From NCBI GenBank assembly GCA_009699875.1, contig WLNI01000001.1, positions 930,001 to 994,000 on the forward strand: 64,000 nucleotides of DNA, in the 5' to 3' direction. The translations under genes were made by a program, and so were the position numbers. Below are positions 40,116 to 60,218 of this stretch, one piece after another. Under the pieces are notes generated by a model. The model saw only the letters and a list, made by a program, of their open reading frames with translations, ran no database searches and was not told where the DNA came from. This stretch comes from Actinomycetota bacterium. GTDB lineage: Bacteria; Actinomycetota; Acidimicrobiia; Acidimicrobiales; RAAP-2. Every line of letters starts with the position of its first letter. The first letter of the stretch is position 1.

Positions 40116-40130
40116 GTGAACAGTGTTAAC
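40116..40130. promoter_or_regulatory. Palindromic operator A, upstream of carotenoid oxygenase 1
   Basis: GTGAACA-G-TGTTAAC, a perfect match to the island consensus, 39 bases before the ATG at 40170. Confidence 0.7.
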
Positions 40131-40169
40131 CTGTTAGGAGGTAACCATAACGGATGCGCAGGAGGACCC

Positions 40170-41603
40170 ATGGCCGCACTAGCCCCACTCGTTGGAAACG
40201 TCACCAACCAAAACCAGCAGCCCGATCTTGAGGGCAATATGTTCCCGGTCAGCGACGAAGTCGATGTTGCGTCACTGGAGATCACCGGTCAGCTCCCGAG
40301 TGGGTTGCAGGGCTCGTTCCTCCGCAACGGTCCGAACCCGCTGTTCGAGCCCATTGGTCGATACCACATGTTTGACGGCGACGGAATGCTGCATGGCATC
40401 ACCCTGGAAGATGGCCGAGCGTCCTACCGCAATCGGTGGATCCGCTCTCGTGGGTTGTGCGCCGAGGCCAAACTGGGTCGAGCGGCATATCCGGGTCTGA
40501 GTGAGGTCACCGACTTCCCCAGCTCATCGCTCGTCGGCGATGCCGGTCGCGTGAAGAACCCTGCGAACACCCATATCGTCCGCCACGCCGACAAGTATCT
40601 GGCCCTATGGGAAGGTGGGCTGCCTACCGAAGTCACCGCGGCGCTCGAGACAGTGGGTGAATACGACTTCGATGGGAAGCTGAGGGGGGCGATGACGGCG
40701 CATCCACGCTTGGACCCCCGCACCGGCGATCTGTTCTTTTTCGGCTATTCAGTGATGGAACCTGTCATCAACTACTACGTCGTAAACGCTCAGGGAACCC
40801 TCATACACAGTGCGAAGGTCGACCTTCCGGCACCGGTGATGATGCATGACTTCATCATCACCGAGGAGCACGCCGTGTTTCTTGACTCACCCATCGTTTT
40901 CGACATCGCCAATCTGGGGAAGGGCCCTATGGTCCAGTGGCGGCCGGAGAACGGTACCCGAATTGGCGTGTTACCCAGGTTCGGCACAGGAGAAGAGGTG
41001 CGCTGGTTCGAGATCGATCCTGGACACGTGCAACACTTCTGGAACGGCTGGGTTGAGGGAGACCGGATAGAATTCTCTGGGACTCGCTTCGAACGACCTG
41101 ACTTCGGTATCGATTCGACTGTCGAACTCGATACGTCAGTAGTCGACAATACCCCGCCGCAACCAGCCCGCTTCTGGGTAGACCTTGCCGCCGACAAGGC
41201 TGGTTGGGAACAGTTCGACGATCTCGGCGGCGACTTTGCCCGGTTCAACGATGAGTTCGACGGCGTGCGCTCGCGTTTTCACTACATGTCGGCGGTCGTC
41301 GCCCAGGGCCGTCGGCTAGGGGACTTCGACAGCATCGTACGCTACGACGATGCAACAGGTGCGCGTCAGATCTGGACCGCAGGATCAAATGGCCACGTCG
41401 GAGAGAGCGTCTTCGCTCCTGACCCGGAGGGGAGCGCTGAGGACGACGGCTGGCTCCTCAACGCTGTCTACGATGCCGGCACCGAGAGCACGGACATCTG
41501 TGTGCTCGATGCCCGTGACGTGACCGCCGGTCCAATCGCCAGAATCCATCTGGCACGACGTATGCCATTTGGATTCCATGCCAGCTGGTTCGCCAAGAGC
41601 TGA
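40170..41603 (+). CDS. Carotenoid cleavage oxygenase family enzyme 1
   Basis: A 477-residue seven-bladed-propeller Fe(II) oxygenase (carotenoid/lignostilbene dioxygenase family) that would split an alkene double bond with O2 into two carbonyl products. The four iron His are seen at His178 (TAHPRLD), His226 (MMHDFIIT), His289 (HVQHFWN) and His470 (PFGFHASW). GSFLRNGPNP near the N-terminus is typical. ATG 40170 has AGGAGG at ideal spacing. Family substrates range from carotenoids to stilbenes, and the sequence does not settle which. It starts the island and has operator A. Confidence 0.92.
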   Translation: MAALAPLVGNVTNQNQQPDLEGNMFPVSDEVDVASLEITGQLPSGLQGSFLRNGPNPLFEPIGRYHMFDGDGMLHGITLEDGRASYRNRWIRSRGLCAEAKLGRAAYPGLSEVTDFPSSSLVGDAGRVKNPANTHIVRHADKYLALWEGGLPTEVTAALETVGEYDFDGKLRGAMTAHPRLDPRTGDLFFFGYSVMEPVINYYVVNAQGTLIHSAKVDLPAPVMMHDFIITEEHAVFLDSPIVFDIANLGKGPMVQWRPENGTRIGVLPRFGTGEEVRWFEIDPGHVQHFWNGWVEGDRIEFSGTRFERPDFGIDSTVELDTSVVDNTPPQPARFWVDLAADKAGWEQFDDLGGDFARFNDEFDGVRSRFHYMSAVVAQGRRLGDFDSIVRYDDATGARQIWTAGSNGHVGESVFAPDPEGSAEDDGWLLNAVYDAGTESTDICVLDARDVTAGPIARIHLARRMPFGFHASWFAKS

Positions 41604-42002
41604 CAGGTGGCGATGTGGCCAGGGGCGTCCTCGTCGGACGCCTGACAAGCATGATCACGGTCAAGCCCGCATCCGGCGGATTCTGTGCGCCATAGAAATA
41701 CGAGCGCGTCTCTAGAACATCTGTGGAGAGCCGTTACCGACGATGAGCGATCGCCCGGATCTGGATGCCGCCCACCCAGCCTGAGCTCGATCGCTGCTTC
41801 ACGATAGTCAGCCAGGGCGGGAGCGATCACGTTGGTGGAGAATGGTTGAGACCTTCAGGTTGAATGTATGGTCACCCGTGTTCCCAGCTCGATGTGGTCT
41901 GGTCGAAGCAGGTTCGATGCATTGTTGCTCACCAGCCCGCTCGACACCCCACGTGCTTCACCACCCACGGTTGCCAGAACGGTCGGGTTGCCTCCGTGAA
42001 GG
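41604..42002. other. Non-coding gap between carotenoid oxygenase 1 and the CoA ligase
   Basis: About 400 bp between two 3' ends. Short frames exist on both strands, but none shows family motifs, a ribosome site or sustained length. It may hold degraded gene remains that I cannot assign. Confidence 0.4.
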
Positions 42003-43598: not shown

Positions 43599-43625
43599 GG
43601 CGTCACTCCTCCGAAGTGTTCGAGT

Positions 43626-43640
43626 GGGGTCACTGTCAAC
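43626..43640. promoter_or_regulatory. Weak operator-like site H, upstream of the CoA ligase
   Basis: GGGGTCA-C-TGTCAAC. The right half differs at one position from the consensus and the left half at three, so this may be chance. Its placement 28 bases before the CoA-ligase start matches the other sites. Confidence 0.3.
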
Positions 43641-43745
43641 TGCGCCCTTCGTTGATCAGCCTAGCCATCTGCTCTGGAAGATGTAGGAGTGCGCCATGGC
43701 TTGGTGGGAGGTCACCCTCAGGACATGGGCACGGATCAACTTCCT

Positions 43746-44339
43746 TCAGCGCTCGGGCGCAGCGAGGCCCGCAAGCAAATTGTCGATAACAGTGGCGACG
43801 ACCTGGGACTCGTACTCGGCACCCAGGTTGATCCCGGCCAACAGGACAGAGGCCGCGCCGTGAGCGGCGGCCCACACCGAGATGGCCACGAGGAGTGGGT
43901 CCGCAGACCGGAGGGCGCCACTTGCCATAGCTGCGTCGATGGCTGAAGCTCCAAGAGCGAAGGTCTTGGTGGCGGCCGGGAGCTCGTCGACGCTCGGTTG
44001 CTGCGCCCAGTCCGGGCGGAACAGGAACATCACCCGGAAGAGGGCCGGATCTTCGAGGGCGTGGTTCACGTAGGCAACGGCCTGTTCACGTATCCGCGCG
44101 AGGGGGTCTGGTGCGTCGATGGCGTCGAAACGGGCGGCGAGGCGTTCGAACTCGAGCTCTGCCACTCCCCGCAGCAGGTCGACCTTGTCGTCGACGTAGG
44201 CGTAAAGGGCAGGTGCTGTCACACCGAGGTCAGCGGCGATGCGGCGCAACGACAGCCCCTCGAGTCCATCAGCGACCACGATGTCTCGGGCGGCCATCAC
44301 GACCGCAGCTCGATTCAGACCAGGCCTATCGTTCGGCAT
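43746..44339 (-). CDS. TetR-family regulator (WHG-domain type)
   Basis: A 197-residue repressor-like protein. The N-terminal helix-turn-helix (about 10-55) contains LSLRRIAADLGVTAPALYAYVDDKVDLL, a textbook TetR DNA-binding helix pair. The C-terminal ligand domain has the VSVWAAAHGAASV-type W-x-x-x-HG pattern of the TetR_C WHG group. It is the only regulator in the island. A degenerate copy of the 15-bp palindrome sits 14-28 bases before its ATG, consistent with autoregulation. It probably controls the island through the palindromes and responds to the catabolic substrate or its CoA ester (inference). Confidence 0.9.
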   Translation of the reverse strand: MPNDRPGLNRAAVVMAARDIVVADGLEGLSLRRIAADLGVTAPALYAYVDDKVDLLRGVAELEFERLAARFDAIDAPDPLARIREQAVAYVNHALEDPALFRVMFLFRPDWAQQPSVDELPAATKTFALGASAIDAAMASGALRSADPLLVAISVWAAAHGAASVLLAGINLGAEYESQVVATVIDNLLAGLAAPER

Positions 44340-44353
44340 AATTAGAGCCTAGG

Positions 44354-44368
44354 CTAAACAGCGTTCAC
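44354..44368. promoter_or_regulatory. Operator B, upstream of the tetR gene
   Basis: CTAAACA-G-CGTTCAC, three mismatches to the consensus over both halves, just before the TetR start. A separate 10-bp perfect palindrome AGCCTAGGCT (44346-44355) overlaps its left edge. Confidence 0.5.
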
Positions 44369-44440: not shown

Positions 44441-44750
44441 GACTACGCCACCTTCTCGTCGGATGAGCCGGAAGGGGGGTGGTTCGGCTCGGTTGCCAAG
44501 GCGGAATTCGTCAGCGGGACCGAGACCACCCACGAGTTCGGGACCCCCATCTGTGGCTGGCAAAGCCGTTTACACTCTTACTCCGGCGTCTAGCGGGGCA
44601 GGAGACGGAGGCTGGCTGCTCAACTACGTGAGCGACCGGACCAACTTGACCACCGATCTGGTCCTGCTCGACGCAGGAACGCTCGACGAGGTGGCCCGGG
44701 TGCACCTCATCGAGTGGGTGCCCTTCGGGTTCCACGGCAATTGGCTAGCC
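44441..44750 (+). pseudogene. Frameshifted C-terminal remnant of a third carotenoid oxygenase
   Basis: From 44441 one frame reads DYATFSSDEPEGGWFGS and then VAKAEFVSGTETTHEFG, then the similarity passes to another frame near 44550 with AGKAVYTL and continues DGGWLLNYVSDRTNLTTDLV and RVHLIEWVPFGFHGNWLA. The order and the last iron-binding His match the C-terminus of the enzyme at 40170 (DGWLLNAVYDAGTESTD ... PFGFHASW). A stop lies upstream of the first frame and the N-terminal two thirds are absent. It overlaps the 3' end of the ABC gene on the other strand. Confidence 0.75.
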
Positions 44751-45623
44751 GCTTGCGTCTCCACCATCTTCGCGCCGTTCCGCTGGCGTCGTGCCTTCGG
44801 GGGATGATGACTCCGAAAGGTTCACGCTCGGCCCGGCCTGATGCCGGTCCGGTATCGCACCGAGGTAGCGGGCGGCCAGCTCCTGAGAATCGGCGTTCAT
44901 CTCACTCGCCTGACCCGAAGTTGCAATGCGGCCCTGGACCATCACGTAGGCGCGGTCAGCCACGGTGAGGACCGCTTTCACATGTTGTTCCACCAAGAGC
45001 ATCCCCACTCCCGTGCTGCGAGCAGTGGCGGCAACTCTGGGCAGTAGTTGCTCGACAATGATTGGGGCCAGCCCCAAGGTCATTTCGTCGATCAGCAAGA
45101 GGCGGGGCCGGGTGGCCAGCGCTCGGGCGATGGCCAACATCTGCTGTTCACCACCAGAGAGCAGACCGGCTCGGCGATCGATGATTGCGGCCAGCGCAGG
45201 AAACGGCTCGAGGGCCAGTTCGATTGCCTCCCCATCCCCACGCCGGGCGGCCAGTCGGAGGTGCTCCCGGCCCGACAGGCCGAAGAAGAGCGCGCGATCC
45301 TCGGGGACGTAGGCCAGCCCCTTGCGTACCAGTGCCAGGGCAACCTTCTCCCGAGCGAATCTGCCACCCATCGGCGGCTCGACACCGAGGACGGTCAACT
45401 CGCCGGCCAACCTTTGGAGCAGGCCTGACACCGTCAGGAGCGTCGTGGTCTTGCCCGCACCGTTGGCACCGAGCAGGGCCACCACCTCACCGGCTCCGAC
45501 GTGCAGGTCCAGGTCATGGACCACGGCAACGCCACCATAGCCAGCTGACATACCTCGCAGCCGCAGCAATGGCTCGGTCGCATCGATCGATCTATCCGTT
45601 ACCTCGTCGGAGTCGGCATTCAC
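44745..45623 (-). CDS. livF: Branched-chain-type ABC importer ATPase (LivF-like)
   Basis: A 292-residue ATPase. Walker A GANGAGKTTT, the LivF-type signature LLSGGEQQMLAIARAL, Walker B LLLIDEMTLGLAP and the switch His in VEQHV are intact. The C-terminus carries an extra acidic tail of about 35 residues. It overlaps livG by four bases and, at its 3' end, the carotenoid oxygenase remnant on the other strand. Partner of LivG in energising import through the fused permease. Confidence 0.92.
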   Translation of the reverse strand: MNADSDEVTDRSIDATEPLLRLRGMSAGYGGVAVVHDLDLHVGAGEVVALLGANGAGKTTTLLTVSGLLQRLAGELTVLGVEPPMGGRFAREKVALALVRKGLAYVPEDRALFFGLSGREHLRLAARRGDGEAIELALEPFPALAAIIDRRAGLLSGGEQQMLAIARALATRPRLLLIDEMTLGLAPIIVEQLLPRVAATARSTGVGMLLVEQHVKAVLTVADRAYVMVQGRIATSGQASEMNADSQELAARYLGAIPDRHQAGPSVNLSESSSPEGTTPAERREDGGDASG

Positions 45624-46369
45624 GACCCACCTCCGAGATAGGCGGAAATGACCGAGGGGTCCTCCCGCACGTCCATCGGCACTCCTGAAGCGATCACCTG
45701 GCCAAAGTCAACCACGGTGAGCCGATCGCACACGTCGAGGACTAATGACATGTCGTGATCCACGAGCAGGACGGCGATGCCCAACTCAGGCAAGTTGCGC
45801 AGCATCTGGCCGAGGGACGCCGTCTCGGCCGGATCGAGACCAGCTGCTGGTTCATCGAGCAATACAAGTTTGGGTCGTGACGCCAATGCCCGGGCCACCC
45901 CGACGAGGCGGCGCTGACCATGGGAGAGATCCGATGGCCGGGCGGTGGCCAACGACCGCAACCCGACGGTGTCGAGGGCGAGGTTGACATCGTCACGGTG
46001 AACGTGGCGTCGGGGGGCGACGGCATCGACGAAAGGTGACCACCAACGGGATGTGGAAGTTGCGACGAGGAGGTTCTCCTCGACACTCAAGTCCACAAAT
46101 AGTTCTATGGACTGAAACGTCCGAACCAGTCCTGCTCGTGCACGCATGTGGGGAGGAAGCGAGTCAATTGGGTGGCCGTCGAGAAGGATTGACCCCCGTA
46201 CCTGCGGAACGAATCCACAGAGTGCATCGATCGTGGTTGTCTTGCCCGCTCCGTTCGGTCCGATAAGACCCATGATGGTGCCGTGGGCTAGCGAAATGCT
46301 CAGGCCATCCACGGCGCGCAGTCCGCTGTAGTCGACACACAAGTCGGTCACCTCGAGCAAAGCGGTCAC
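45620..46369 (-). CDS. livG: Branched-chain-type ABC importer ATPase (LivG-like)
   Basis: A 249-residue ATPase with Walker A GPNGAGKTTT, signature DLSHGQRRLVGVARAL, Walker B LVLLDEPAAGLDP and VDHDM. The signature reads LSHGQ instead of LSGGQ. GTG 46369 overlaps the permease stop (GTGA), supporting this start over the GTG/ATG at 46402. Second ATPase of the importer. Confidence 0.92.
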   Translation of the reverse strand: MTALLEVTDLCVDYSGLRAVDGLSISLAHGTIMGLIGPNGAGKTTTIDALCGFVPQVRGSILLDGHPIDSLPPHMRARAGLVRTFQSIELFVDLSVEENLLVATSTSRWWSPFVDAVAPRRHVHRDDVNLALDTVGLRSLATARPSDLSHGQRRLVGVARALASRPKLVLLDEPAAGLDPAETASLGQMLRNLPELGIAVLLVDHDMSLVLDVCDRLTVVDFGQVIASGVPMDVREDPSVISAYLGGGS

Positions 46370-48378
46370 GTCGCGCCACGCGATCGAACACCACGTAACC
46401 AAACGCTGTGCAGTCGGGTGATGGCGCGGCGGACGGCCATGCTCAACCCGTCAGGATAGAAAGCAGCGACCAGGATCAGCAGAATCCCACTCAGCGCGTA
46501 CTGTGTGGTCGTGTCGGCCGCTGCTCCGCCTTGGATACGGGTGAGCACTCCACCCGAAGCGAGGAATCCGGCGATCAACGCCCCGCTGAGCGTGGCGATA
46601 CCGCCCAAGTAGGTCAGGGCCAGCACCGCCAGGGCGCCCACCACCAGAAATTGCTGGGGCGAAAGTGCCGGCAACTCATACGCCAGCAGTGCACCCCCCA
46701 AACCGGCAAAGAGTGACGAGGCCGCGAAGGCACTCAGCTTTGTCGAGCCGACGTTGATCCCGGCGGCCGCCGCCGCCCGTTCGTTGCTGCGCACGGCCAG
46801 CCAACGTAACCCGGTGGGACTGCGCCGTAGGTTTGCCACTGCCAGCATGCTGGCGGCAAGTACCACCACGGCCACCACCCCAAAAGCGGGTCGGAAATTG
46901 GCCGCCCCCGGTGCAAGAAAGCCCAGATTGCTTCCGAACAGCTGGGGGTTGGGCACACCGCTTAGGCCGTTGAGTGCAGGAGAGTTGAACACGAGCTGCT
47001 CGATGGCCACGGCTGCGGCGATGGTGGCCACGGCCAGTGTCATGCCACGCACCCGAACGGCCGGAAGTCCGAACAGTATTCCGACCACGACTGTGAGAAT
47101 CACGGCAACGAGTGGCGCCCAGGGGAACCCGACACCGGCCAATTCCAGTTTGGCCGTGGCGAAGGCGGCGAGGCCGGCGAACGCGTAGAGGGCAAGTGAT
47201 ATCTGACCCACATATCCCGTCACCACGACACACGATAGGGCGATGAGCGCGGCGATCACCGAGACCACGATGGCGAGACGCCACTGGGCGTCGAGGGTGT
47301 AGAGCGCGACTACTGCAGCCCCGGACAACAGTGGAATCCACAGCCAAGGTCGCCTGGGAACTGGTGCGACGGGGAGCCGGCTGTCGACCAGCGATGCCCG
47401 GGTTGGTAGGTGGGCTCCTCGGATGGTGATGGCCACCAGTATGAGCAGTACCGGCAATGCCTGGCGGAGGCCGTCATTGGGGAGCCAGGAGGGTAGCCAC
47501 GCCGCCTGGGACTGGAATGTCGCCACCCCGCTCTGCGTCACTCCGATGGCCAGTCCGGCGAATGTGGCCATGGCGAAACTGTCCAGCCTGGCGAGGAGGG
47601 CGGCGGCAAGGGCGGGAACCACCAGCAGGCTGGATTGCGTCGGGTTGAGCTGGCTCGTGATGCCGGCGACGAAGATCATGGCCCCACCGGCAAGCACCGA
47701 GGCGATGATCCAGTTCAGAAGGCCCACGCGGTCAGGCGACACCCCGATCAGGATCGCGCCCTTCTCGCTCTCGGCTGCAGCTCGGGTTGACAGGCCGAAG
47801 CGCGTGTATCGGAACACCGCACCGAGGACGACCGCCACCGTCACCGCGAGTCCGGCCAGTACGAAGCTGGCGGTGGGCACCACAACGCTTCCGAGTCGCA
47901 CGACACCGTTCGGCAACAGGGAGGTCAGCGGCAGTGTGGCGGCACCGGCACCGATGTCATGTGCCCGTAACTCCATGACCGCCTGCAAGTAGAGGAACAG
48001 GCCCAGTGAAGCCACGAGCCGAGCAAGCGGCGGGGCGTTGCGCAGTGCCCGAAAGACCAGTAAGTAGACGAGCGCGCCGACAAGCGCTGCCACCACCAAG
48101 GCGATTGCCAGGGCGGTGACAACGGTAGGGCGGTCGATCAAGTGCACGACGCCGGGTACTCCGAAGACCGGAAGCACCAAGTTGCCACCCTTCTGGGTGC
48201 TGGCCACATTGAAGTTCCGCAGGCCGTAGTAGACGTACGCGATGTAGGTGCCCATGGCGGCGTGAGCGAGGTTGACCACGTTTGACGCCCGGAAGGTGAG
48301 CACCAGCCCGATGGCCAGTACCGCCACCACAGCTCCAGCCCCAAGACCGGTCAGCGATAACTGGAGATAGTGAGCCAC
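46366..48378 (-). CDS. Fused LivH-LivM ABC importer permease
   Basis: A 670-residue membrane protein that combines the two permeases of branched-chain amino-acid type importers. Residues 1-310 are LivH-like, with GLVLTFRASNVVNLAHAAMG at the start, and about 350-650 are LivM-like, with GQISLALYAFAGLAAFATAKL and GALLAYELPALSPQQF. About 16 helices are expected. LivH and LivM are separate genes in most bacteria; the fusion keeps a short Pro/Arg linker around 325-345. It lies between the binding protein and the ATPases in one minus-strand operon. Confidence 0.92.
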   Translation of the reverse strand: MAHYLQLSLTGLGAGAVVAVLAIGLVLTFRASNVVNLAHAAMGTYIAYVYYGLRNFNVASTQKGGNLVLPVFGVPGVVHLIDRPTVVTALAIALVVAALVGALVYLLVFRALRNAPPLARLVASLGLFLYLQAVMELRAHDIGAGAATLPLTSLLPNGVVRLGSVVVPTASFVLAGLAVTVAVVLGAVFRYTRFGLSTRAAAESEKGAILIGVSPDRVGLLNWIIASVLAGGAMIFVAGITSQLNPTQSSLLVVPALAAALLARLDSFAMATFAGLAIGVTQSGVATFQSQAAWLPSWLPNDGLRQALPVLLILVAITIRGAHLPTRASLVDSRLPVAPVPRRPWLWIPLLSGAAVVALYTLDAQWRLAIVVSVIAALIALSCVVVTGYVGQISLALYAFAGLAAFATAKLELAGVGFPWAPLVAVILTVVVGILFGLPAVRVRGMTLAVATIAAAVAIEQLVFNSPALNGLSGVPNPQLFGSNLGFLAPGAANFRPAFGVVAVVVLAASMLAVANLRRSPTGLRWLAVRSNERAAAAAGINVGSTKLSAFAASSLFAGLGGALLAYELPALSPQQFLVVGALAVLALTYLGGIATLSGALIAGFLASGGVLTRIQGGAAADTTTQYALSGILLILVAAFYPDGLSMAVRRAITRLHSVWLRGVRSRGAT

Positions 48379-48402: not shown

Positions 48403-49707
48403 TCAGCGGGCGAAGCTGCCGACGTCGATCCAGCCGGTGAGTTGTTTGATGGATCCGTTCTTGTACACCGCCAGCGACTGTTGGGGTGAGCACATGGCGG
48501 GGTAGCCGTTGAGTTGGTGTCCGTTGCACGTATAGGGATGGCCGAAGAAGCTGGGTTGGTCCTTTGCGCTCCTGAACATCCCGGCAATTGCGGTCGGAGT
48601 AATCTTGTCCACCCCGAGGCGGCGCATAACAACGTAGAGGTTGATAAGTGACCGGAAACTCACGGTTCCGGCGCTCTGCCACTGGTAGCCGTACTTGGGG
48701 CCGTAGTGGTCCACGATGTCGTGGTAGAGGACATTGTCGGGACTCGACCGGTTCAGATCGGCCTCGACATTGAAGATGGAATTGTTTGCCGCCGATCCGA
48801 GGCTGTTGAGAATGTCCGTTGCTGCGCAGGCGCCCGTGTACATGAGCGGGACTTTGATTCCGATCTGCTTGGCCGTGAGCATCGCCGGCTTGCATCCCGT
48901 GTCCGCGGTCAATGCGATAACCGCGTCGGGCGATGACTGGGCGGCCTGATTCATAGCGGTCACCAGGTCGGGGTTGATGGCGCTCACACTCACCAGAGTG
49001 ACGTGGGCGCCGTGACGTTCGAACACGCTCGCGGCAAGCTTGGCGGAGTTGGCGATCGGTCCGAAGTCGATGTAGATCATTGCGATCTTGCGGGCGTGCA
49101 GTGTCCGGATGGCGTACTCGCCCAATCCCAACGCCGCGCCCCAGGTACCACCGCTGAATTGGAAGCTCACCTTGGACTGAACCGACTCAGTACTGACCGG
49201 GACGCCCCCGACGTAGGGGATGCCGTTGTTGGTCAGGGTTTGGATGCCCGTTCCCCAGATATCGATTCCTCCGACCACGGCCATGACATGCTTGGTCACC
49301 ATTTCCTGGGCGCAACTCTGGGAAAGTTCTGGATCACCGTTGGTGTTGCACGTCAACAGCTCAAGGGGGTGACCGTCGATCCCATTGAGTTCCGAGTTGA
49401 CGAAGTCCACCGCGACCTTGTCAGCCTCTGTCAACTCTGGGAATGCACCCGCCGCCCCGCTGTCCTGGTTGATCGTTCCGATGACGATCGGACTGCCAGT
49501 GGCCTTCGTGGCCGTCTTGGTCATGTAGGGCGACAGCATGGATCCACTTGGAGTGCAAGCGACCACCGAGGTGCCAGCCCCGCACGAGGTTGATGTGACC
49601 GTGCTAGTGGTGCCGGATCCGGATCCGGCTGAGGTTGCCTCACTGCAGCCGGCCAATAACATCGCGCTCGTTGTGAGCACAATGGCCATAACTTTTTTAG
49701 TCCGCAA
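48403..49707 (-). CDS. ABC importer substrate-binding lipoprotein
   Basis: A 434-residue type I periplasmic binding protein (LivJ / Peripla_BP_6 class). The signal peptide ends LLAGC (lipid-modified Cys near residue 21), then a Ser/Thr/Gly linker and two lobes from about 72. The start GTINQDSGAAGAFPEL is the usual ligand-site loop. In actinobacteria this class also binds aromatic acids and other small molecules, so amino acids are not implied. The start is TTG 49707 after GGGGGG; ATG 49689 would cut into the signal. Operator C lies 36 bases upstream. Confidence 0.9.
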   Translation of the reverse strand: MRTKKVMAIVLTTSAMLLAGCSEATSAGSGSGTTSTVTSTSCGAGTSVVACTPSGSMLSPYMTKTATKATGSPIVIGTINQDSGAAGAFPELTEADKVAVDFVNSELNGIDGHPLELLTCNTNGDPELSQSCAQEMVTKHVMAVVGGIDIWGTGIQTLTNNGIPYVGGVPVSTESVQSKVSFQFSGGTWGAALGLGEYAIRTLHARKIAMIYIDFGPIANSAKLAASVFERHGAHVTLVSVSAINPDLVTAMNQAAQSSPDAVIALTADTGCKPAMLTAKQIGIKVPLMYTGACAATDILNSLGSAANNSIFNVEADLNRSSPDNVLYHDIVDHYGPKYGYQWQSAGTVSFRSLINLYVVMRRLGVDKITPTAIAGMFRSAKDQPSFFGHPYTCNGHQLNGYPAMCSPQQSLAVYKNGSIKQLTGWIDVGSFAR

Positions 49708-49742: not shown

Positions 49743-49757
49743 GTTAACAGTGTTCAC
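49743..49757. promoter_or_regulatory. Palindromic operator C, upstream of the ABC importer operon
   Basis: GTTAACA-G-TGTTCAC, a perfect match to the consensus (reverse orientation of sites A and G). Confidence 0.7.
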
Positions 49758-49902: not shown

Positions 49903-50658
49903 TCACCAATCGGCGGAAGGGTTGGGTGGAAAGATCTTGTCGCGTTCGGTCGCCAATCGTCGAGCGTCCCACGTTGCATCAACGCGCTGCCAGATCACCG
50001 GATTCCGGCTGGAATCCTCGATCTGCTTCCACTGACCTGTGGACACGAACATCGGGTCACTGGCGCCGACGACCGTCTGCTCGGAGCGGTCGGTGATAGT
50101 TCCGACCAGTCGATCAGGGCTCACCTGGGTGAGATCGTAGGCAAAGATCTCGCGTCGGATGATGTAGATCTCACCTTCCAAGTCGGCGCTGAACTTCATC
50201 TTCACGGTTACCCCTGGGCGTCCGTCGCCATCGACATCGATAATTCGAGAATCTTCGGGGTCACTCGGCAACGCCTCGTTTGCCGGATCAGCGAGCGTGA
50301 TCCCAATCGCCGTTGGGGTAGCGGGGCGGACGACGCGCAGCGCCCCCCCTTCCTCGGTGACCTCGAGTGGCACATCGATGGGGACAATCGCGCTGGTGGC
50401 CACGTCGGACATGGATATCTGTATGTCCAGGTCGGTCACGACGTCCGCGTGACAAAAGCGTTGTCGGTTCCACAGCCGCCCGTGACGGAGTTCGAGGTCA
50501 GCGAAGCCCGTGCTGATGATCAAGGTCTTCATGTCCTCGTCCTCGTACGCCACCACGTCGAAGTGGGCGTAACGACCGACCAAGCGTTCGGCTCCCTCGG
50601 GCAATCTGGAAGGCTCGGGCCTCGTGGACTCCTCATGGGCAACGTTGGCTGGTTCCAT
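49903..50658 (-). CDS. Unrecognised 251-residue protein coupled to the Rieske oxygenase
   Basis: No known family is recognised. The protein is acidic and strand-rich in appearance, with an N-terminal GRYAHFDVVAYEDEDMKTL segment, an EF-hand/dockerin-like calcium loop DVDGDGRPGV (about residues 142-151) and a Trp-rich C-terminus. There is no signal peptide or membrane helix, which is odd for a protein with such a loop. Its ATG follows the Rieske stop by one base, so the two are co-translated. It could be an accessory or substrate-carrying subunit of the oxygenase, but this is only context. Confidence 0.65.
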   Translation of the reverse strand: MEPANVAHEESTRPEPSRLPEGAERLVGRYAHFDVVAYEDEDMKTLIISTGFADLELRHGRLWNRQRFCHADVVTDLDIQISMSDVATSAIVPIDVPLEVTEEGGALRVVRPATPTAIGITLADPANEALPSDPEDSRIIDVDGDGRPGVTVKMKFSADLEGEIYIIRREIFAYDLTQVSPDRLVGTITDRSEQTVVGASDPMFVSTGQWKQIEDSSRNPVIWQRVDATWDARRLATERDKIFPPNPSADW

Positions 50659-50659
50659 T

Positions 50660-51874
50660 TCAGATTGCCTCGACGTAGTCGTCGAGTTGGTCCGACATCG
50701 CTGTTTCGGGCGGTAGTGCGTCGGTGCCGATGAACTTGTCGACTGCCCGCTCGAAGTGATGGATGAGGCGTTCGTGCCAACCGAGCTGGAGCGGGCGAGC
50801 CCCGGGCGAGGAGATCGAGGCTTGGATCGGCGCCATGTTGGCCTTGTCCTGTGCCATCACCGTCTCGAACAGTTCCATCCGGTCGAGGTGCTCCTGGGGG
50901 ACCTCATCGCCTGACCATTCGGGTGCGTACCACCGCAGTTCGAGTTCGGTGGTCGCAGGACCGGTGGGCCACATGCACAGAAACGTGAAGGCCCCGGTGT
51001 CCACCGGAACCACCAAATTGGGGAAGATGCCGAACGACGTCGACGTCTGACGCCAGAGAAGTGGAATCGCCGGGTTGTCATGCTCTTCAGAAACCATGGG
51101 AAAATCTTGGAAAATGTCATGCTTCTCCACGGTCAGGCGGCTGTGGCCATTGGGCAGCATAGACACAGTGGCCGATTGGTCGTTGTAGAGGAGGGCCGCA
51201 TTGTCAGGGTGCACGGTGCGGACGTGGTACACCTCGAGAAAGGCATCGACCATGAGCTTCCAATTGCAGTCGAGCTGGTGCACCTGGGTACCCACCGCCC
51301 GCATTCCCGGACCGTTGATCTCGGACATCTGATCAGCAATCGGACCTAAGAACTCGACTAGCGGGCATGCACCGGCGTCCTCGCTGATGAAGACCCAGCC
51401 GTCCCAGATCTCGCATCGCACGGGGATGAGCCCCAAAGAGTCCTTGTCGAGACCGACGAAACTTCGAGAATCGGGGACGGTCTTGAGGATCCCATCCGTT
51501 CCATAGGACCAGGAATGGTACTGACAGGTGAGCCGACGTGCGGTTCCGCATTCATCTCGGGTGACCGGCGCCCCCCGGTGTCGACAGGAGTTATAGAAGG
51601 CTCGGAGTACGCCGTCCTGACCCCGAACAACCACGATCGGCGCACCCGATCGGTGGGTCATGCGATAGGAACCGGGAACTGACCACTCGGACTCGTGACC
51701 GACGAACAGCCAGCACCGGCCGAAGACCTTCGCCTTCTCTAGTTCGTAGAACTCCGGGTCCGTGTAGCGACCGGTCGGGATCTGTGGAACTGCAATTGCG
51801 TCCGGCGGGGGAGCGGTTCGAGCTTTCTCCACCTCGATCCGTTCCCGGATGCTTCGATCGAGCGCAGCGTCCAT
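50660..51874 (-). CDS. Rieske non-heme iron oxygenase, alpha-subunit type
   Basis: A 404-residue oxygenase. The [2Fe-2S] site is Cys97-x-His99 and Cys117-x2-His120 (CRHRG ... CQYHSW). The mononuclear iron site is DAFLEVYHVRTVHP with Asp210, His217 and His222. It would hydroxylate or demethylate an aromatic or hydrophobic compound. No beta subunit, ferredoxin or reductase is in the window, so electrons must come from elsewhere. ATG 51874 has AAGGAGAT close upstream; a longer open frame to 52027 would run through the operator and is unlikely. Operator D is 28 bases upstream. Confidence 0.93.
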   Translation of the reverse strand: MDAALDRSIRERIEVEKARTAPPPDAIAVPQIPTGRYTDPEFYELEKAKVFGRCWLFVGHESEWSVPGSYRMTHRSGAPIVVVRGQDGVLRAFYNSCRHRGAPVTRDECGTARRLTCQYHSWSYGTDGILKTVPDSRSFVGLDKDSLGLIPVRCEIWDGWVFISEDAGACPLVEFLGPIADQMSEINGPGMRAVGTQVHQLDCNWKLMVDAFLEVYHVRTVHPDNAALLYNDQSATVSMLPNGHSRLTVEKHDIFQDFPMVSEEHDNPAIPLLWRQTSTSFGIFPNLVVPVDTGAFTFLCMWPTGPATTELELRWYAPEWSGDEVPQEHLDRMELFETVMAQDKANMAPIQASISSPGARPLQLGWHERLIHHFERAVDKFIGTDALPPETAMSDQLDDYVEAI

Positions 51875-51892: not shown

Positions 51893-51924
51893 AGTGTATA
51901 AGTGAACACTGTAAACCATACACT
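51893..51924. promoter_or_regulatory. Nested inverted repeat with operator D, Rieske promoter
   Basis: The 15-bp core at 51902-51916 is GTGAACA-C-TGTAAAC (one mismatch). It is enclosed by a second inverted repeat AGTGTAT (51893-51899) and ATACACT (51918-51924) with nearly the same centre. A larger footprint or two dimers could bind. Confidence 0.65.
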
Positions 51925-52009: not shown

Positions 52010-52024
52010 GTTAATGTTGTTCAC
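52010..52024. promoter_or_regulatory. Operator E, upstream of the amidohydrolase operon
   Basis: GTTAATG-T-TGTTCAC. The right half is perfect and the left half has two mismatches. It ends 52 bases before the ATG at 52077 and lies on the other side of the divergent promoter from site D. Confidence 0.55.
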
Positions 52025-53446: not shown

Positions 53447-54265
53447 ATGACCTCGACGAGTGTTCTCGTCACCGGTGCGGGCAGCGGACTCGGTGCCGAG
53501 ATCGCCGCCGCCGCCGCCCGGGCAGGTTGGATCGTCGGGGTTCTCGACCGCGACGACGCCACGGCCACGCGGACGGCCGATGCACTAGGTGAGTTCGCCG
53601 TAGCGTTGCACGCCGACACCACCGATGAAGTAGCCATTGAATCCGCACTCGACCGTTTCGCGCAGGTAACGGGACTCGAGACACCCGATGCGCTGGTATG
53701 CAACGCGGGCATTGTCCGATTCGGACCGCTGCTCGACCATTCCGCCGATGATTGGCGCGCCGTGGTCGACGTGAATTTGTCAGGGACCTTTCTGACAGCA
53801 CGGGCGTTTGCTCGGCGCCTTGTCGGTGCGGGCAAACGAGGTTCGATTGTGACCGTGACCTCGATGAACGGGGTGGCGCCCGGCCCCAACGGCGGTGCCT
53901 ACGGAGCAACGAAGGCAGGTATAGCCCTCCTCACCCAGCAGATGGCGTTGGAGTGGGGACCGCTCGGTATCCGAGCCAATGCGGTGGCGCCCGGGCTCAT
54001 CGACGCGGGCATGTCCAGGCCTATCTACGCCGATCCTGACATCTTGAAGCAACGTCGTGAGCGCGTACCGTTGGGTCGCCTCGGGACCGCAGCGGACGTC
54101 GCCTCGGTCGTGCTGTTTCTCCTTTCTGACGCAGCCGGGTACGTGAACGGGGCCGAGCTCCTCGTCGACGGTGGCGTCACCATGTCGGTCATAAGTTCAC
54201 TTCCGCGGCCTGAGGCGGTGGACTTCGTCGGTTCCGGTCACGACAATTCCCAAAGCCGGGAATGA
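53447..54265 (+). CDS. Short-chain dehydrogenase/reductase
   Basis: A 272-residue classical SDR: TGAGSGLG, the NAD-type Asp in VLDRDD, CNAG, Ser in TSMNG and YGATK. ATG 53447 has GGGAGG seven bases upstream; ATG 53405 overlaps the previous stop (ATGA) and would add 14 residues. An unusual C-terminal tail of about 25 residues after the usual DGGVTM end is present. It would oxidise an alcohol formed by an island oxygenase. Confidence 0.88.
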   Translation: MTSTSVLVTGAGSGLGAEIAAAAARAGWIVGVLDRDDATATRTADALGEFAVALHADTTDEVAIESALDRFAQVTGLETPDALVCNAGIVRFGPLLDHSADDWRAVVDVNLSGTFLTARAFARRLVGAGKRGSIVTVTSMNGVAPGPNGGAYGATKAGIALLTQQMALEWGPLGIRANAVAPGLIDAGMSRPIYADPDILKQRRERVPLGRLGTAADVASVVLFLLSDAAGYVNGAELLVDGGVTMSVISSLPRPEAVDFVGSGHDNSQSRE

Positions 54266-54978
54266 AGCGCAACCTCCTCCTCACGGGTGGTCCCGCCCAC
54301 GACTTCGAGGTCACATCGCATTCGCTCACGTCCTTGTTCGATGAGGTCGGCATGGTGACGACCGTCGTCGACGAACCTGGAGCTGCCCTCGCACTCCTCA
54401 GGTCCGTGGAGGCCGGTGATGCCGAGCGATTCGACCTCCTCACAGTCAACGGCCTCCATTGGAGCATGGATGCCGAACGCTACGCCCACCTTCGTGATCA
54501 GCACAGCTACACCCTCGAGCCGAACGATGCCACTGTGCTGGAGCGCTTCGTCGAGACAGGAGGTGGACTGCTCGCCCTCCACACCGCTGTCATAAGCTTC
54601 GACGCCGAACCAACCTGGCGGGGACTATGCGGGGCCGCGTGGAATTGGGACCGCTCGTTCCACGCGCCTCCTGAACACACGGCTGTAACCGTCACTCCAG
54701 CCGGACACCACCACATCGTCACGGAAGGATTGGACGACTTCTCGGTGTTCGACGAGATCTACGAGAGCCTCGATGTCAGCCCGTCGATCATTCCGCTCCT
54801 CTCGAGCCGGCGTGGCAATCGCGATCGTCCACTGCTCTGGGCCCGCGAGCTCGGCACGGGTCGAGTCGTGACGGACTTGTTGGGTCATGGTCTCGAATCG
54901 ATCATGCAGCCGACCCATCGCTCCATCCTCCAGCGGTCAGCCAACTGGGCGTCGACGGATCCATCGAGCGATTCATGA
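54262..54978 (+). CDS. ThuA-like protein (trehalose-utilisation fold)
   Basis: A 238-residue ThuA-domain protein with a class I glutamine-amidotransferase-like fold. Seen: LLTGGPAHDFEVTSHSL at the start, VETGGGLLALHTA and HHIVTEGLDDFSVFDEIY. It lacks an obvious catalytic Cys, as do other ThuA proteins. It overlaps the SDR stop (ATGA). Some ThuA-domain proteins act with sugar oxidoreductases on keto-sugars; the role in this catabolic operon is unknown. Confidence 0.8.
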   Translation: MKRNLLLTGGPAHDFEVTSHSLTSLFDEVGMVTTVVDEPGAALALLRSVEAGDAERFDLLTVNGLHWSMDAERYAHLRDQHSYTLEPNDATVLERFVETGGGLLALHTAVISFDAEPTWRGLCGAAWNWDRSFHAPPEHTAVTVTPAGHHHIVTEGLDDFSVFDEIYESLDVSPSIIPLLSSRRGNRDRPLLWARELGTGRVVTDLLGHGLESIMQPTHRSILQRSANWASTDPSSDS

Positions 54979-56215: not shown

Positions 56216-56249
56216 CCGCGCTCAGTGCCGACGTCGCAGGTTCGACCGA

Positions 56250-57245
56250 ATGATCGACCTCCACGCGCATGTGGTGCTCGACTCCGTTCTGGGTGCCGCT
56301 GGTCCTCTCGGGCCGCAGATGGACGATGGCGACGAGGCGTCCGGAATACCACCGTCCTTCCGAGTCGGGAGCTATACCCTGCTCGGCGTCCACTACCGAG
56401 ACACTCCATTCATGGATCTCAATCGCCGGATCGAGGCCATGGACGCGGCGGGAATCCACATGCAGGTGCTTTCACCGAACCCGCTTACCATGTTCTCGCA
56501 CGCCAGCGTGGAGTGGGCCGCCCCCTTCTGTCGACGGCACAACGACGAGTTGGCGGCGCTGGTGGCTCGAGCCCCCGATCGACTACGTGGGTTCGCTCAA
56601 CTCCCGATGCAGGACCCCACCATCGCCACAGCCGAGCTGCAGCGTGCCGTAGGCGAGTTGGGCCTGCTAGCGCCGTACCTCGCTACGGACCTCGGTCGCC
56701 CCCTCGACGACCCGGTGTTCGATGCGGTTTGGGAGACCTGCGTGAACCTCGACGTCCCGGTGTTCTTCCACCCCACTCCCGACGGAATCGACCGTCCCCG
56801 GCGCGACGACCGTTTGGCACGCTTCGACGGTGACCTCTGGCTGGGTTTCCTCTACGAAGAATCGATCGCCGTGTCATCGTTGGTGCTCGGCGGTGTCTTT
56901 GACCGCCATCCCGACCTGGACGTGTGCATGAGCCACGGTGGAGGGGCGACTTCCTGGCTGGCCGAACGGATGGAGCACGCGGCACGCACCAGACCGTGGG
57001 CAGCTAGCACGCTGAGTGAGCCGGGCGCGGTTGCACAACGGCTTGGCCGGATCTGGTGGGATGCCCATGTCGGTGGCCCCCGATCCCTTGGCGCCCTGAT
57101 CGCTACGTTTGGTCCGGACCGGCTGGTGGCCGGCACGAACTTCGCCGGATGGGACCAGTCGCCCGACCCCAGCTGGGGCGACGCAGACCTCGCTTCGGTC
57201 ATGGATGACAACGCCCGCCGGCTGCTACGCCTCGACCCGCGCTAG
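56250..57245 (+). CDS. Amidohydrolase-2 / ACMSD-like decarboxylase or hydrolase
   Basis: A 331-residue TIM-barrel protein of the ACMSD group (decarboxylases and hydratases of aromatic or ring-cleavage acids). Ligand candidates: His5-x-His7 at the N-terminus (DLHAH), His174 (FFHPTP), His in MSHGGG. The final acid in the GTD-x-P motif is replaced by Asn297 (AGTNFAGWDQ), which may alter metal binding. ATG 56250 lies 34 bases after the P450 stop. It probably acts late in the pathway. Confidence 0.85.
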   Translation: MIDLHAHVVLDSVLGAAGPLGPQMDDGDEASGIPPSFRVGSYTLLGVHYRDTPFMDLNRRIEAMDAAGIHMQVLSPNPLTMFSHASVEWAAPFCRRHNDELAALVARAPDRLRGFAQLPMQDPTIATAELQRAVGELGLLAPYLATDLGRPLDDPVFDAVWETCVNLDVPVFFHPTPDGIDRPRRDDRLARFDGDLWLGFLYEESIAVSSLVLGGVFDRHPDLDVCMSHGGGATSWLAERMEHAARTRPWAASTLSEPGAVAQRLGRIWWDAHVGGPRSLGALIATFGPDRLVAGTNFAGWDQSPDPSWGDADLASVMDDNARRLLRLDPR

Positions 57246-57253
57246 GTGCGAAT

Positions 57254-57553
57254 TCAGCCTTCGAACTCGAACTGCACCGCGGCCCTCTCGGCCACGATCG
57301 GCGCAATCCGTTCAGCGACGAGGGACTGGTGAGCCGGATGATCCCGATAGGCCAAGTAGCCCGTCACGTCATCGAAGTCCGCCACGACGGAGAAATCGAA
57401 GTTCCCTTCGTTGAGCCCGGCGTCGGGGCCGAAACGGAAGAAGCGCACTTCGGGGATCGCTTCTGGAAGGTTTGCGAGCGCCGAGGCGACCGGGCGCACT
57501 TCAGCCGCAGTCACCTCCGCTTTCCAGCGGAAGAGAACGATATGGCGGAGCAC
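57254..57553 (-). CDS. Dabb-domain (stress-responsive A/B barrel) protein
   Basis: A 99-residue dimeric alpha/beta barrel protein. It starts LRHIVLFRWKAEV and has FDFSVVADFDD and YRDHPAHQSLV, the standard Dabb motifs with the conserved His pair. Such proteins act as small enzymes or ligand binders in aromatic and polyketide pathways. The start is GTG 57553. It converges with the preceding operon and diverges from the SDR at 57612. Confidence 0.85.
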   Translation of the reverse strand: MLRHIVLFRWKAEVTAAEVRPVASALANLPEAIPEVRFFRFGPDAGLNEGNFDFSVVADFDDVTGYLAYRDHPAHQSLVAERIAPIVAERAAVQFEFEG

Positions 57554-57583
57554 GGTTTGATTCTAACGGACAGCAAAGTCTCG

Positions 57584-57598
57584 GTGAACACCGTTCGG
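57584..57598. promoter_or_regulatory. Operator F, between the Dabb and SDR genes
   Basis: GTGAACA-C-CGTTCGG. The left half is perfect and the right half has three mismatches. It sits between two divergent starts. Confidence 0.45.
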
Positions 57599-57611
57599 CT
57601 AGGGTGACGAC

Positions 57612-58367
57612 ATGGATCTCGGGATTGCGGGCCGGCGAGCGGCGGTGGCATGTTCGTCGGCGGGTCTCGGGTTCGAAGCGGCGCTGGCCTTGGCCAACGA
57701 AGGGGTTCGAGTAGCCATCAGTGGGCGCGACCCTGGTCGGCTCGCAGCTGCCTCCGACCGGCTTCGCTCAGCCGGCGCCGATGTGATCCCAATCCGAGCT
57801 GACGTCTCGGACCCGCAAGGAGCCACAGCGTTCGCATCGTCGGCCGCAGCCGAATTGGGCGGCATCGACATACTGATCGCCAACGCGGGTGGGCCACCTC
57901 CGGGCACGTTCTCTACGACCACCTTGGATGACTACCAAGCTGCGCTGAACCTGAATCTCCTTTCGACGATTGCGATGTGCCGGGCCGTGGTACCCGACAT
58001 GCAGCGGGCGGGATGGGGTCGGGTCGTCGCAATCACCTCCATCGGGGCGCGCCAACCGATCGGCTCGCTGATGGCGTCGACGACGGCACGCGCCGGGGTA
58101 ACGGGATTCCTGAAGGTTTTGGCAACCGAGGTTGCGCCTGATGGTGTGACCGTCAACTCGTTGCAGCCAGGTGTTCATGCAACCGAACGCCTCCTTTCGC
58201 TGCCCGCCCCGGCCCTTGACGAGCTCGTCGCCGACACTCCGACTGGGACGCTCGGCGATCCCGCCAACTTCGGCGCCGTTGTGACATTCCTGTGCAGTCA
58301 CCAGGCGCGTTTCCTGACCGGCGCCGGCATACCCGTCGATGGTGGGTCGTCCCGGGCCCTGATGTGA
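57612..58367 (+). CDS. SDR-fold protein lacking the usual catalytic Tyr/Lys
   Basis: A 251-residue SDR fold: modified cofactor loop CSSAGLGFE, NAGGPPPG, Ser in TSIG, terminal DGGSSRAL. At the active site the sequence reads Met154-A-S-T-Thr158 where YxxxK is expected. This occurs in a known divergent SDR group with the same PPPGTF and LNLLSTIAMCRAVVPDM motifs, so the change is likely ancestral. Activity as a standard reductase is doubtful. ATG 57612 has AGGGTGA upstream. Confidence 0.83.
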   Translation: MDLGIAGRRAAVACSSAGLGFEAALALANEGVRVAISGRDPGRLAAASDRLRSAGADVIPIRADVSDPQGATAFASSAAAELGGIDILIANAGGPPPGTFSTTTLDDYQAALNLNLLSTIAMCRAVVPDMQRAGWGRVVAITSIGARQPIGSLMASTTARAGVTGFLKVLATEVAPDGVTVNSLQPGVHATERLLSLPAPALDELVADTPTGTLGDPANFGAVVTFLCSHQARFLTGAGIPVDGGSSRALM

Positions 58368-58421
58368 AATCCGGGCTCGCAGGGGCCTGATGGACCGGGC
58401 CCTGTCCAGTCGGATATGGTG

Positions 58422-58436
58422 GTGAACACTGTTAAC
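58422..58436. promoter_or_regulatory. Palindromic operator G, upstream of carotenoid oxygenase 2
   Basis: GTGAACA-C-TGTTAAC, perfect consensus, 51 bases before the ATG at 58488. Confidence 0.7.
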
Positions 58437-58487
58437 CAGCGACTCGATCCGAGCCGCTGGTGCTGATCGCTTGTCGAGGGAGGACAA

Positions 58488-60218
58488 ATGACGCCACGCA
58501 CTCTGACAACTGCGGTCCATGCTGATTTCGAGTTGGAAGTCGTCAAGGGCTCATGGCCTGACGACATCAGCGGAGACATGGTGTTCTCCAGCCCCCAGCG
58601 ATGCACGCCAATGGCGTACGGGATCTTCGACTGGGGAGCGATTTGTCGTCTGGCGCTCGAACCGGGGACCCGGGGAGCGACCTCTGGTCGCTTCGCTTGG
58701 CAGTCGCGGTCTATTCAGACTCCCGGGAAGCGCCTGTGGGATCGCCACCCCAACCAGTTCACCACCAGCGCCGCCGGCTACCAGTCTGTGTTCGGCGCAG
58801 CGAACGCGTCGAACACCGCCCCGTTGCCCTGGGGCGGAAGGCTCTTCACGACCTGGGACGCTGGACGGCCCGTCGAGTTGCATCCCAGGACGCTCGAGTT
58901 CGTAGCGGAGGTCGGTCATCGCGACAGCTGGGGCGGAAGCTCACTCGACATGCCTGGTGTTCTGCCGTTTCTGCTGTCGTCAGCGCATCCGGTCGCCGAT
59001 CCCGACCGGAACTGCATGTGGACGGCGAAGCTCGACTTTGTGATGGAGCCGAGCTTTGGGATGCGTCCGGCGGTGGTTCGCTTCGACCCTACCGACGGCA
59101 CAAACGTTCGATACTGGCCCCTCGAGGGGATTACGTTCGGAGGCTCGACCCACACGGTGAGCCAGACCCGGGATTGGGTCATCCTCGCTGATTCCGGCAA
59201 CTTTAAGCCCGACCCTGCGGAGATTTTCGGCGGTGATCGCGAACTGACCATCGACGACGAGGTGCCGGTGTGGCTTATCCGAAAAGAGCAACTCGAGGGC
59301 CTCCCGTCGGGAACACCGGTAACCCCGATCTGCCTCACAATGGCCCCGCCGACAGGGCACTTCTACGCCCGGTGGGAGGACGCCGAGGGCATCTCGGTGG
59401 TGTGGGAGGGAATGGATCTGATGGATCTCGGCCTGTATCTCAAAGCTGACGATCTGGACGTCAACGGCAACCCCGTGGATCCCGCCGCGGTGGGCCAGTA
59501 CAACATGGCGATGGCTCCTGAGACGATCGTCGAGGTGCTGTTCGAACCCGAGTCAGGGAAGGTCATCGAGCGTGGCCGCTTTCGCGAAGACTGGACGTTC
59601 AACCTCCAGCTTTCTGCCATGGACTGGTCCATCGAGGGCATGACCAGGCCAACGCTGCACCACGTGACGTATCAGGGGTGCCGGCCGGGCAGTATCTCCC
59701 AACGGGCGGCCAAGCTCTACGAGGGTCGCATCGATCTCGACCAACTCCGCGAGGCGACACCTGGGAGCCTGGCCACGTTCGAGCGTGGCTCTATGGAGTT
59801 GAAGGCGAGATGGGAGTATCCGGACCTTGGCGATCACATCACATCGCCGACGTTCGCACCGCGATCATGCGGAAAGAATGCCGCACACAGTGCCTACGCT
59901 GGCGCTGAACCCGGTGGCCACGACGGGTACGTGGTCCAACCCGTGCACTCTGACGATGGGTTCCGCATCGAGGTGTTCGACGCTGCCGCCGTCGGCAACG
60001 GCCCGATCGCCATCTTGATGGGCACTAATAAAGAGTGCGTTCCGATGTTGTTGCATTCGGCGTGGATGCCCGTCTATGACGAACTGATCGATGCGGAGCG
60101 CCTCCGGTTCTCAGATGAGTTGAGCGATGAACTGATGACATCAGTTCCCAACGAGTTGCACGGCGCCATCCGTGCCGTGGCCGACGAATGCAATATGCTC
60201 ATCGACTCGGCGCCATAG
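58488..60218 (+). CDS. Carotenoid cleavage oxygenase family enzyme 2, divergent long form
   Basis: A 576-residue member of the carotenoid/lignostilbene oxygenase superfamily, about 100 residues longer than enzyme 1 and little alike in detail. The four expected iron His can be placed at His167 (SSAHPVAD), His222 (GSTHTVSQ), His291 (TGHFYARWED) and His523 (LLHSAWMP). The N-terminus lacks the usual G-x-x-x-RNGPNP and has GDMVFSSPQRC. AGGGAGGA precedes the start. Last gene of the island, with operator G. Confidence 0.82.
   Translation: MTPRTLTTAVHADFELEVVKGSWPDDISGDMVFSSPQRCTPMAYGIFDWGAICRLALEPGTRGATSGRFAWQSRSIQTPGKRLWDRHPNQFTTSAAGYQSVFGAANASNTAPLPWGGRLFTTWDAGRPVELHPRTLEFVAEVGHRDSWGGSSLDMPGVLPFLLSSAHPVADPDRNCMWTAKLDFVMEPSFGMRPAVVRFDPTDGTNVRYWPLEGITFGGSTHTVSQTRDWVILADSGNFKPDPAEIFGGDRELTIDDEVPVWLIRKEQLEGLPSGTPVTPICLTMAPPTGHFYARWEDAEGISVVWEGMDLMDLGLYLKADDLDVNGNPVDPAAVGQYNMAMAPETIVEVLFEPESGKVIERGRFREDWTFNLQLSAMDWSIEGMTRPTLHHVTYQGCRPGSISQRAAKLYEGRIDLDQLREATPGSLATFERGSMELKARWEYPDLGDHITSPTFAPRSCGKNAAHSAYAGAEPGGHDGYVVQPVHSDDGFRIEVFDAAAVGNGPIAILMGTNKECVPMLLHSAWMPVYDELIDAERLRFSDELSDELMTSVPNELHGAIRAVADECNMLIDSAP

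Follow-up and report, generated by a model that had tools for sequence, protein, structure and literature searches.

TetR catabolic regulons of the KstR type serve sterol degradation in actinobacteria. The locus considered here, a 20-kb catabolic island at 40116-60218 in which seven promoter regions carry the same short palindrome (coordinates are those of the window, i.e. the whole 64-kb stretch of DNA that was analysed), resembles them in combining one TetR protein, one short palindrome placed before many operons, and genes by which a lipophilic compound would apparently be taken up, oxygenated and activated with CoA. It differs from them in its operator and in its enzymes, which include carotenoid oxygenases together with a Liv importer, and the similarity of its TetR protein to the KstR model is weak (19.7 bits, cut-off 280). 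The TGAAC-N3-GTTCA box of the actinobacterial biotin regulon, i.e. that of the TetR protein BioQ, has the half-site and spacing of the island operator (PMC3398298). The island oxygenases, CCO1 and CCO2, share a four-His iron site and the Trp of the LALWEG segment with Synechocystis ACO (2biw) and the carotenoid 9,10-dioxygenases, but CCO2 is very distant from these, and both oxygenases sit in a catabolic, operator-marked cluster. The lignostilbene-alpha,beta-dioxygenases belong to the same enzyme family, alkene cleavage being the expected reaction; their Lys position is, however, a Trp in the island oxygenases, and CCO1 reaches 256 bits against a cut-off of 800 for the corresponding models.

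A TetR catabolic regulon is a known kind of system; for this gene set, and for an order-wide carotenoid-oxygenase regulon, no match was found in the open literature searched. Neither such a cluster nor the operator with a carotenoid role was found in open-access sources, a search that does not exclude closed papers. To our knowledge, few bacterial clusters for the breakdown of carotenoids or carotenoid fragments have been defined.

It is highly probable that the locus is a catabolic island, itself probably acquired, in which the TetR protein acts on the palindromes of seven promoter regions, the most likely substrate class being an apocarotenoid or other isoprenoid polyene. In the proposed scheme, the TetR dimer would sit on the 15-bp palindromes in these promoter regions, its own included, and repress them, until released by a ligand that may be the substrate or an early intermediate. 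The compound would be imported by the Liv ATP-binding cassette (ABC) transporter and oxidised by a Rieske oxygenase and a P450, with its conjugated double bonds being cleaved by the two carotenoid oxygenases, and the fragments would then be processed by short-chain dehydrogenases (SDRs), two amidohydrolases, a ThuA-like protein and a CoA ligase. The sequences themselves show the sites, where these lie in the promoters, that corresponding genes bear them in other families, and that they co-occur with the TetR protein; binding, repression, induction, the order of reactions and the substrate are inferences.

Operator sites in the window and the genome

Perfect copies of the 15-bp palindrome GTGAACANTGTTAAC stand at 40116 (+), 49743 (-) and 58422 (+), and a copy with a single mismatch stands at 51902. 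At up to three mismatches the window contains 15 palindrome matches, as compared with 2.8 expected from shuffles (shuffle maximum 7). When a scoring matrix, derived exclusively from operator sites of other genomes, was run over the 64-kb window, its top seven positions were the operators listed below, with a clear gap to the next-best score (9.9 at 20281). The first-pass annotation of this DNA had named eight palindromes, three of them perfect and none inside a gene. Seven of the eight are real, being the matrix top seven, the three perfect copies are as it described them, and none of the seven lies within a gene once start codons are corrected (ATG at 40170 for CCO1 and a start at 51874 for the Rieske gene, the mechanical open reading frames of which begin in or beyond the palindromes). 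The eighth, a weak copy at 43626 (GGGGTCACTGTCAAC) before the CoA ligase gene, has a matrix score of -5.1, i.e. background, and was rejected.

Operator 1, 40116..40130, GTGAACAGTGTTAAC, 39 bp before CCO1; score 24.3; several relatives likewise have a site before CCO1
Operator 2, 44354..44368, GTGAACGCTGTTTAG on the minus strand, 14 bp before tetR; score 19.4; also before tetR in five other copies
Operator 3, 49743..49757, GTTAACAGTGTTCAC, 35 bp before the importer operon; score 24.3; Liv operons of relatives are also preceded by sites
Operator 4, 51902..51916, GTGAACACTGTAAAC, 27 bp before the Rieske gene; score 20.8; sites before Rieske genes in relatives
Operator 5, 52010..52024, GTTAATGTTGTTCAC, 52 bp before the amidohydrolase operon; score 15.3; better-matching sites at this place in genomes G396, G365 and G380
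Operator 6, 57584..57598, GTGAACACCGTTCGG, between the divergent Dabb and SDR2 genes; score 15.4; genome G058 likewise has a site between Dabb and SDR2
Operator 7, 58422..58436, GTGAACACTGTTAAC, 51 bp before CCO2; score 24.3; the site position shared most widely among relatives

Genome-wide work employed pattern searches, the matrix scan being limited to the window. At no more than one mismatch to GTGAACANTGTTMAC there are four places in the whole 1.97-Mb genome, i.e. 40116, 49743, 51902 and 58422, all of which are in the island; the chance level in an independent-base model is ~0.7 strand-matches per genome and 0.007 per 20 kb. With 13-52 bp between operator and start codon, a bound protein would presumably block the promoter.

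Conservation of the cluster and its operator

Relatives of CCO2 were searched for in 397 genomes of the order and were found in 27, among which the window's genome is the only one from its family; the nearest relatives (80-84%) are from other families. The search for syntenic clusters suggested by the first-pass annotation was productive, at least 13 other genomes of the order having related clusters with much gene content in common, mostly at 45-84% identity and in shuffled order (some contigs end inside the cluster). The common core comprises the Rieske oxygenase, a 251-aa protein, CCO1, CCO2, amidohydrolase 1, SDR1, ThuA, P450 and amidohydrolase 2, with TetR, CoA ligase, Liv importer, SDR2 and Dabb being present in several clusters. 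The records include Microthrixaceae metagenome-assembled genomes (MAGs), Aquihabitans and one Ilumatobacteraceae MAG; the isolate Actinobacteria bacterium IMCC26207 (L177) has a smaller CCO1-TetR-CCO2-Liv version.

In these relatives the palindrome, as GTKAACRNYGTTMAC, stands before CCO2, CCO1, Rieske, amidohydrolase 1, SDR2 or tetR, mostly at less than 100 bp, and somewhat further before the importer. In 36 further loci, the window not included, upstream zones account for 17.9 of 727 kb (2.5%); of the sites with no more than one mismatch, 36 fall in these zones and five elsewhere, whereas 60 permuted palindromes tried on the same loci gave means of 0.08 in upstream zones and 0.53 elsewhere. 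An operator is present in 28 of 40 CCO2 promoters of the Acidimicrobiia type and in none of 39 of the Actinomadura type, a difference for which the Fisher value of 4e-12 overstates the evidence, the loci not being independent. The presence of the operator before the same genes across families is taken to be a shared regulatory circuit. Most of L116-L151 (Actinomadura, Nonomuraea, Planobispora and relatives) have CCO2 homologues (44-48%) without other island genes, TetR or operator.

Sites away from the clusters were sampled in 20 stretches picked by eye, a sample that is not unbiased. They include some before or beside CCO1 homologues (L196, L203, L206, L208, L212, L213), at a CCO2-like gene (L198), at Liv importers (L200, L202, L205, L211) and at a 65% CoA ligase (L204). 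Operator-like sites in L197, L199, L207, L210, L213 and L214 lie near genes for a sulfotransferase, an alpha/beta hydrolase, lipoprotein-like proteins and a 2-oxoacid:ferredoxin oxidoreductase; these may be chance matches or further members of the regulon.

The oxygenases and the probable substrate

Both oxygenases belong to the RPE65 family (PF03055, cut-off 27 bits), CCO1 with 420 bits and CCO2 with 71 bits, and the four iron-binding His residues are conserved in both and in their relatives. Among solved structures, CCO1 matches a carotenoid 9,10-dioxygenase best. Against the named carotenoid-cleaving equivalog NF052295, CCO1 reaches 299 bits, below the cut-off of 675; CCO2 is very distant from apocarotenoid oxygenase, at ~30 bits for its profile. 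The solved bacterial dioxygenase 5v2d has a LALKED segment, the Lys of which presumably binds the phenol. The aligned segment is LALWEG in CCO1 and TTWDAG in CCO2, as compared with LALWEG in apocarotenoid-15,15'-oxygenase, so that the Lys marking the lignostilbene dioxygenase subgroup is absent from both island enzymes, with Trp in its place. This Trp is invariant in all relatives examined, and the four Fe-binding His and the ALWEGG of CCO1 are likewise invariant in relatives.

Because both oxygenases have Trp at this position, an apocarotenoid-like polyene appears favoured over a 4-hydroxystilbene, a conclusion of moderate weight, and the most likely substrate class would be an apocarotenoid or other isoprenoid polyene. 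Among the candidates listed in the first-pass annotation (carotenoids, apocarotenoids, stilbenes and lignin dimers), stilbenes and lignin dimers have thus become less likely.

It may instead be that the regulon is real and its substrate an aromatic alkene, e.g. a stilbenoid, an isoeugenol-like compound or a lignin-derived dimer, a proposal that we regard as unlikely, albeit the strongest of the alternatives. The Rieske oxygenase and P450 would then act on the ring, the carotenoid oxygenases would cleave the alkene in the manner of lignostilbene dioxygenases, and the ACMSD-like amidohydrolase would decarboxylate the aromatic acid. Consistent with such a scheme, the Rieske protein is similar in its N-terminal half to cinnamate and biphenyl dioxygenases, as is amidohydrolase 2 to ACMSD and resorcylate decarboxylases, and CCO1 matches both 5v2d and the lignostilbene dioxygenase models (256 bits). 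By contrast, the replacement of LALKED by LALWEG and TTWDAG, the former as in apocarotenoid oxygenase, and the carotenoid 9,10-dioxygenase being the best solved match of CCO1, argue against an aromatic alkene.

The TetR protein as proposed regulator

The TetR protein (43746-44339) matches PF00440 with 28.3 bits (cut-off 24) and TetR_C_33 with 46 bits (cut-off 26.8). An orthologue (E at most 1e-22) is present, beside the cluster or elsewhere, in 19 of 20 CCO2-bearing genomes and is absent from 16 of 16 Actinomadura-type genomes searched likewise. The recognition-helix segment V[TS]AP[AT]LY is common to all TetR copies but the most distant, and a site precedes tetR at six loci, i.e. in this island and at five further copies. 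We infer from these features that the island TetR binds the palindrome and that, via operator 2, it would regulate its own gene.

An improbable alternative is that the palindrome is bound by a regulator encoded elsewhere, with the island TetR being a passenger. Binding by TetR is argued from sequence comparison, most TetR copies in relatives are without an operator of their own, and TetR is unlinked from the cluster in several genomes; on the other hand, the operator goes together with the TetR orthologue from genome to genome, both being missing in the Actinomadura-type group, the recognition helix is near-invariant, and the operator stands before tetR in the six loci. The claim of the first-pass annotation that one TetR controls import, oxygenation, alkene cleavage, dehydrogenation and CoA activation is upheld in part: as regards one regulon in one island, the operator common to genes for import, oxygenation, alkene cleavage and further processing, the linkage conserved across families and the choice of TetR as the most likely regulator, but not as regards the CoA ligase site. 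Its description of the system as self-contained is only partly apt, since in relatives the operator also occurs at carotenoid oxygenase and Liv importer genes and at a CoA ligase gene elsewhere in the genome, with TetR sometimes unlinked.

The view that the palindromes cluster by chance or form a functionless mobile repeat is scarcely credible and appears effectively refuted by cross-genome comparison, since, although looser matches in the own genome are no more frequent than those of a reversed-pattern control, the strong sites occur only in the island, promoter position is kept across families, and homologues in genomes without TetR have no sites before them. Membership of a BioQ-type biotin regulon, for which a near-identical half-site and the same spacing might speak, can be given almost no credence, the own bioB locus having no site at up to three mismatches and the sites marking oxygenase and importer genes, which are unrelated to biotin.

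Several observations nevertheless weigh against an island-wide TetR regulon for polyene breakdown. The motif enrichment at the island for which the first-pass annotation had proposed a test holds for sites with no more than one mismatch, and is lost at looser criteria: at two mismatches the own genome has 10 forward and 13 reverse matches against 14 and 19 for the reversed-pattern control, and a broader consensus at one mismatch gives 6 places against 7. As loose matches are no commoner than the control, it is only the strong sites and where they lie, rather than overall counts, that carry the signal. With the broad pattern at one mismatch, 11 of 15 genomes have 3-11 places versus 0-1 for the reversed control (the exceptions, besides the own genome, being G305 with 1 versus 11, G412 with 1 versus 1 and G415 with 1 versus 0), but this cross-genome test is not fully blind, the pattern having been settled after the sites of the first related cluster were seen. 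The loci are related, so that counts such as the 36 upstream sites are not independent; 12 of the 40 Acidimicrobiia-type CCO2 promoters are without an operator at two mismatches, and before most TetR copies in relatives none was found. Finally, CCO2 stands far from the rest of its family, and the sequences do not allow a pathway to be drawn for these enzymes.

Gene content and origin of the island

40170..41603, +, CCO1, carotenoid oxygenase (RPE65 family), 477 aa; PF03055, 420 bits
42003..43598, -, acyl-CoA ligase, FadD4-like; PF00501, NCBIfam; without an operator of its own
43746..44339, -, TetR-family regulator, 197 aa; TetR_N, TetR_C_33; near-invariant recognition helix; proposed regulator
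44553..44747, +, third carotenoid oxygenase, C-terminal remnant (pseudogene); PF03055 positions 404-468, 46.8 bits, over the cut-off
44745..45623, -, LivF-type ABC ATPase; from sequence, homologues in related clusters
45620..46369, -, LivG-type ABC ATPase; from sequence, homologues in related clusters
46366..48378, -, fused LivH-LivM permease, 670 aa; from sequence, homologues in related clusters
48403..49707, -, substrate-binding lipoprotein of the Liv importer; PF13458, lipoprotein signal in the sequence
49903..50658, -, 251-aa protein, predicted beta-barrel; conserved in clusters
50660..51874, -, Rieske non-haem iron oxygenase, alpha subunit; PF00355, PF00848
52077..53408, +, amidohydrolase 1, prolidase/carboxypeptidase-like; PF01979, solved relatives
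53447..54265, +, short-chain dehydrogenase 1 (SDR1); from sequence, homologues in related clusters
54262..54978, +, ThuA-like protein; PF06283
55004..56215, +, cytochrome P450; PF00067; I-helix, ExxR and haem-Cys motifs conserved
56250..57245, +, amidohydrolase 2, ACMSD/resorcylate-decarboxylase-like; solved relatives, conserved in clusters
57254..57553, -, Dabb-like small protein, 99 aa; reading frame, homologues in related clusters; name from the first-pass annotation
57612..58367, +, short-chain dehydrogenase 2 (SDR2); from sequence, homologues in related clusters
58488..60218, +, CCO2, divergent carotenoid oxygenase, 576 aa; PF03055, 71 bits; four His invariant
60406..60482, -, tRNA-Ala (TGC), right edge of the GC-rich island; ARAGORN, GC step

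Amidohydrolase 1, SDR1, the ThuA-like protein, P450 and amidohydrolase 2 form a plus-strand run, and the CoA ligase gene is probably transcribed together with tetR. The oxygenase remnant between tetR and livF, which had gone unnoticed in the first-pass annotation, has its closest match (59%) in the oxygenase next to tetR in L152 and is a trace of an earlier gene arrangement. An FMO gene (37510-39399) and its neighbour (39444-39863) were considered as island members and rejected, having lower GC, no accepted operator and no such neighbours in related clusters.

The Rieske cluster and Fe ligands are conserved in relatives, except for the Asp of DAF in G193. Where a metal-binding Asp would be expected in the amidohydrolase family, amidohydrolase 2 has an Asn (GTN) and amidohydrolase 1, at the corresponding place, a Glu (GSE); both residues are invariant across the window and every relative covering the segment. 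No solved structure matched the P450 at E 1e-15, and a solved-structure search with the Liv substrate-binding protein gave no match. The 251-aa protein, which is conserved and always near the Rieske gene, matches no Pfam or NCBIfam family; its AlphaFold2 model (mean predicted local distance difference test score 88.7) is a beta-barrel, for which a fold search returned generic beta-barrels only (best Z 10.1 for a membrane barrel; also designed barrels, avidins and DynF), and the modelled fold could possibly bind small hydrophobic ligands.

GC content is ~60-65% from 40 to 60 kb as compared with 54-58% outside, and the tRNA-Ala gene at 60406 forms the right edge, i.e. there is the composition step, with a tRNA at one edge, of a tRNA-associated island; the window contains no exact direct repeat (at least 12 bases) of the tRNA-Ala 3' end. 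Five congeners have no strong match to the left-flank acyl-CoA dehydrogenase and partial matches to the right-flank protein. Because it is GC-rich, abuts tRNA-Ala, and has a CCO2 present in no other sampled genome of the family, the island was probably acquired horizontally. Elsewhere in the window, two tRNA-Leu genes, both with a CAG anticodon, lie ~1.3 kb apart (3939-4025 and 5238-5324).

Implications

Carotenoids are made in bulk by algae and plants. We tentatively propose, with somewhat less than even confidence, that the Acidimicrobiales have a mobile and so far undescribed pathway for the catabolism of carotenoid derivatives, employing Liv import, two distinct carotenoid oxygenases, a P450 and a lone Rieske oxygenase, under one TetR that would govern an order-wide polyene regulon including dispersed carotenoid oxygenase, importer and CoA ligase genes. 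The operator, being conserved across families, could help to catalogue the full pathway in bacteria that are uncultured, and the TetR protein could serve to find the inducer, and hence the substrate, with the isolate IMCC26207 and its smaller version of the cluster offering a route to bench work.

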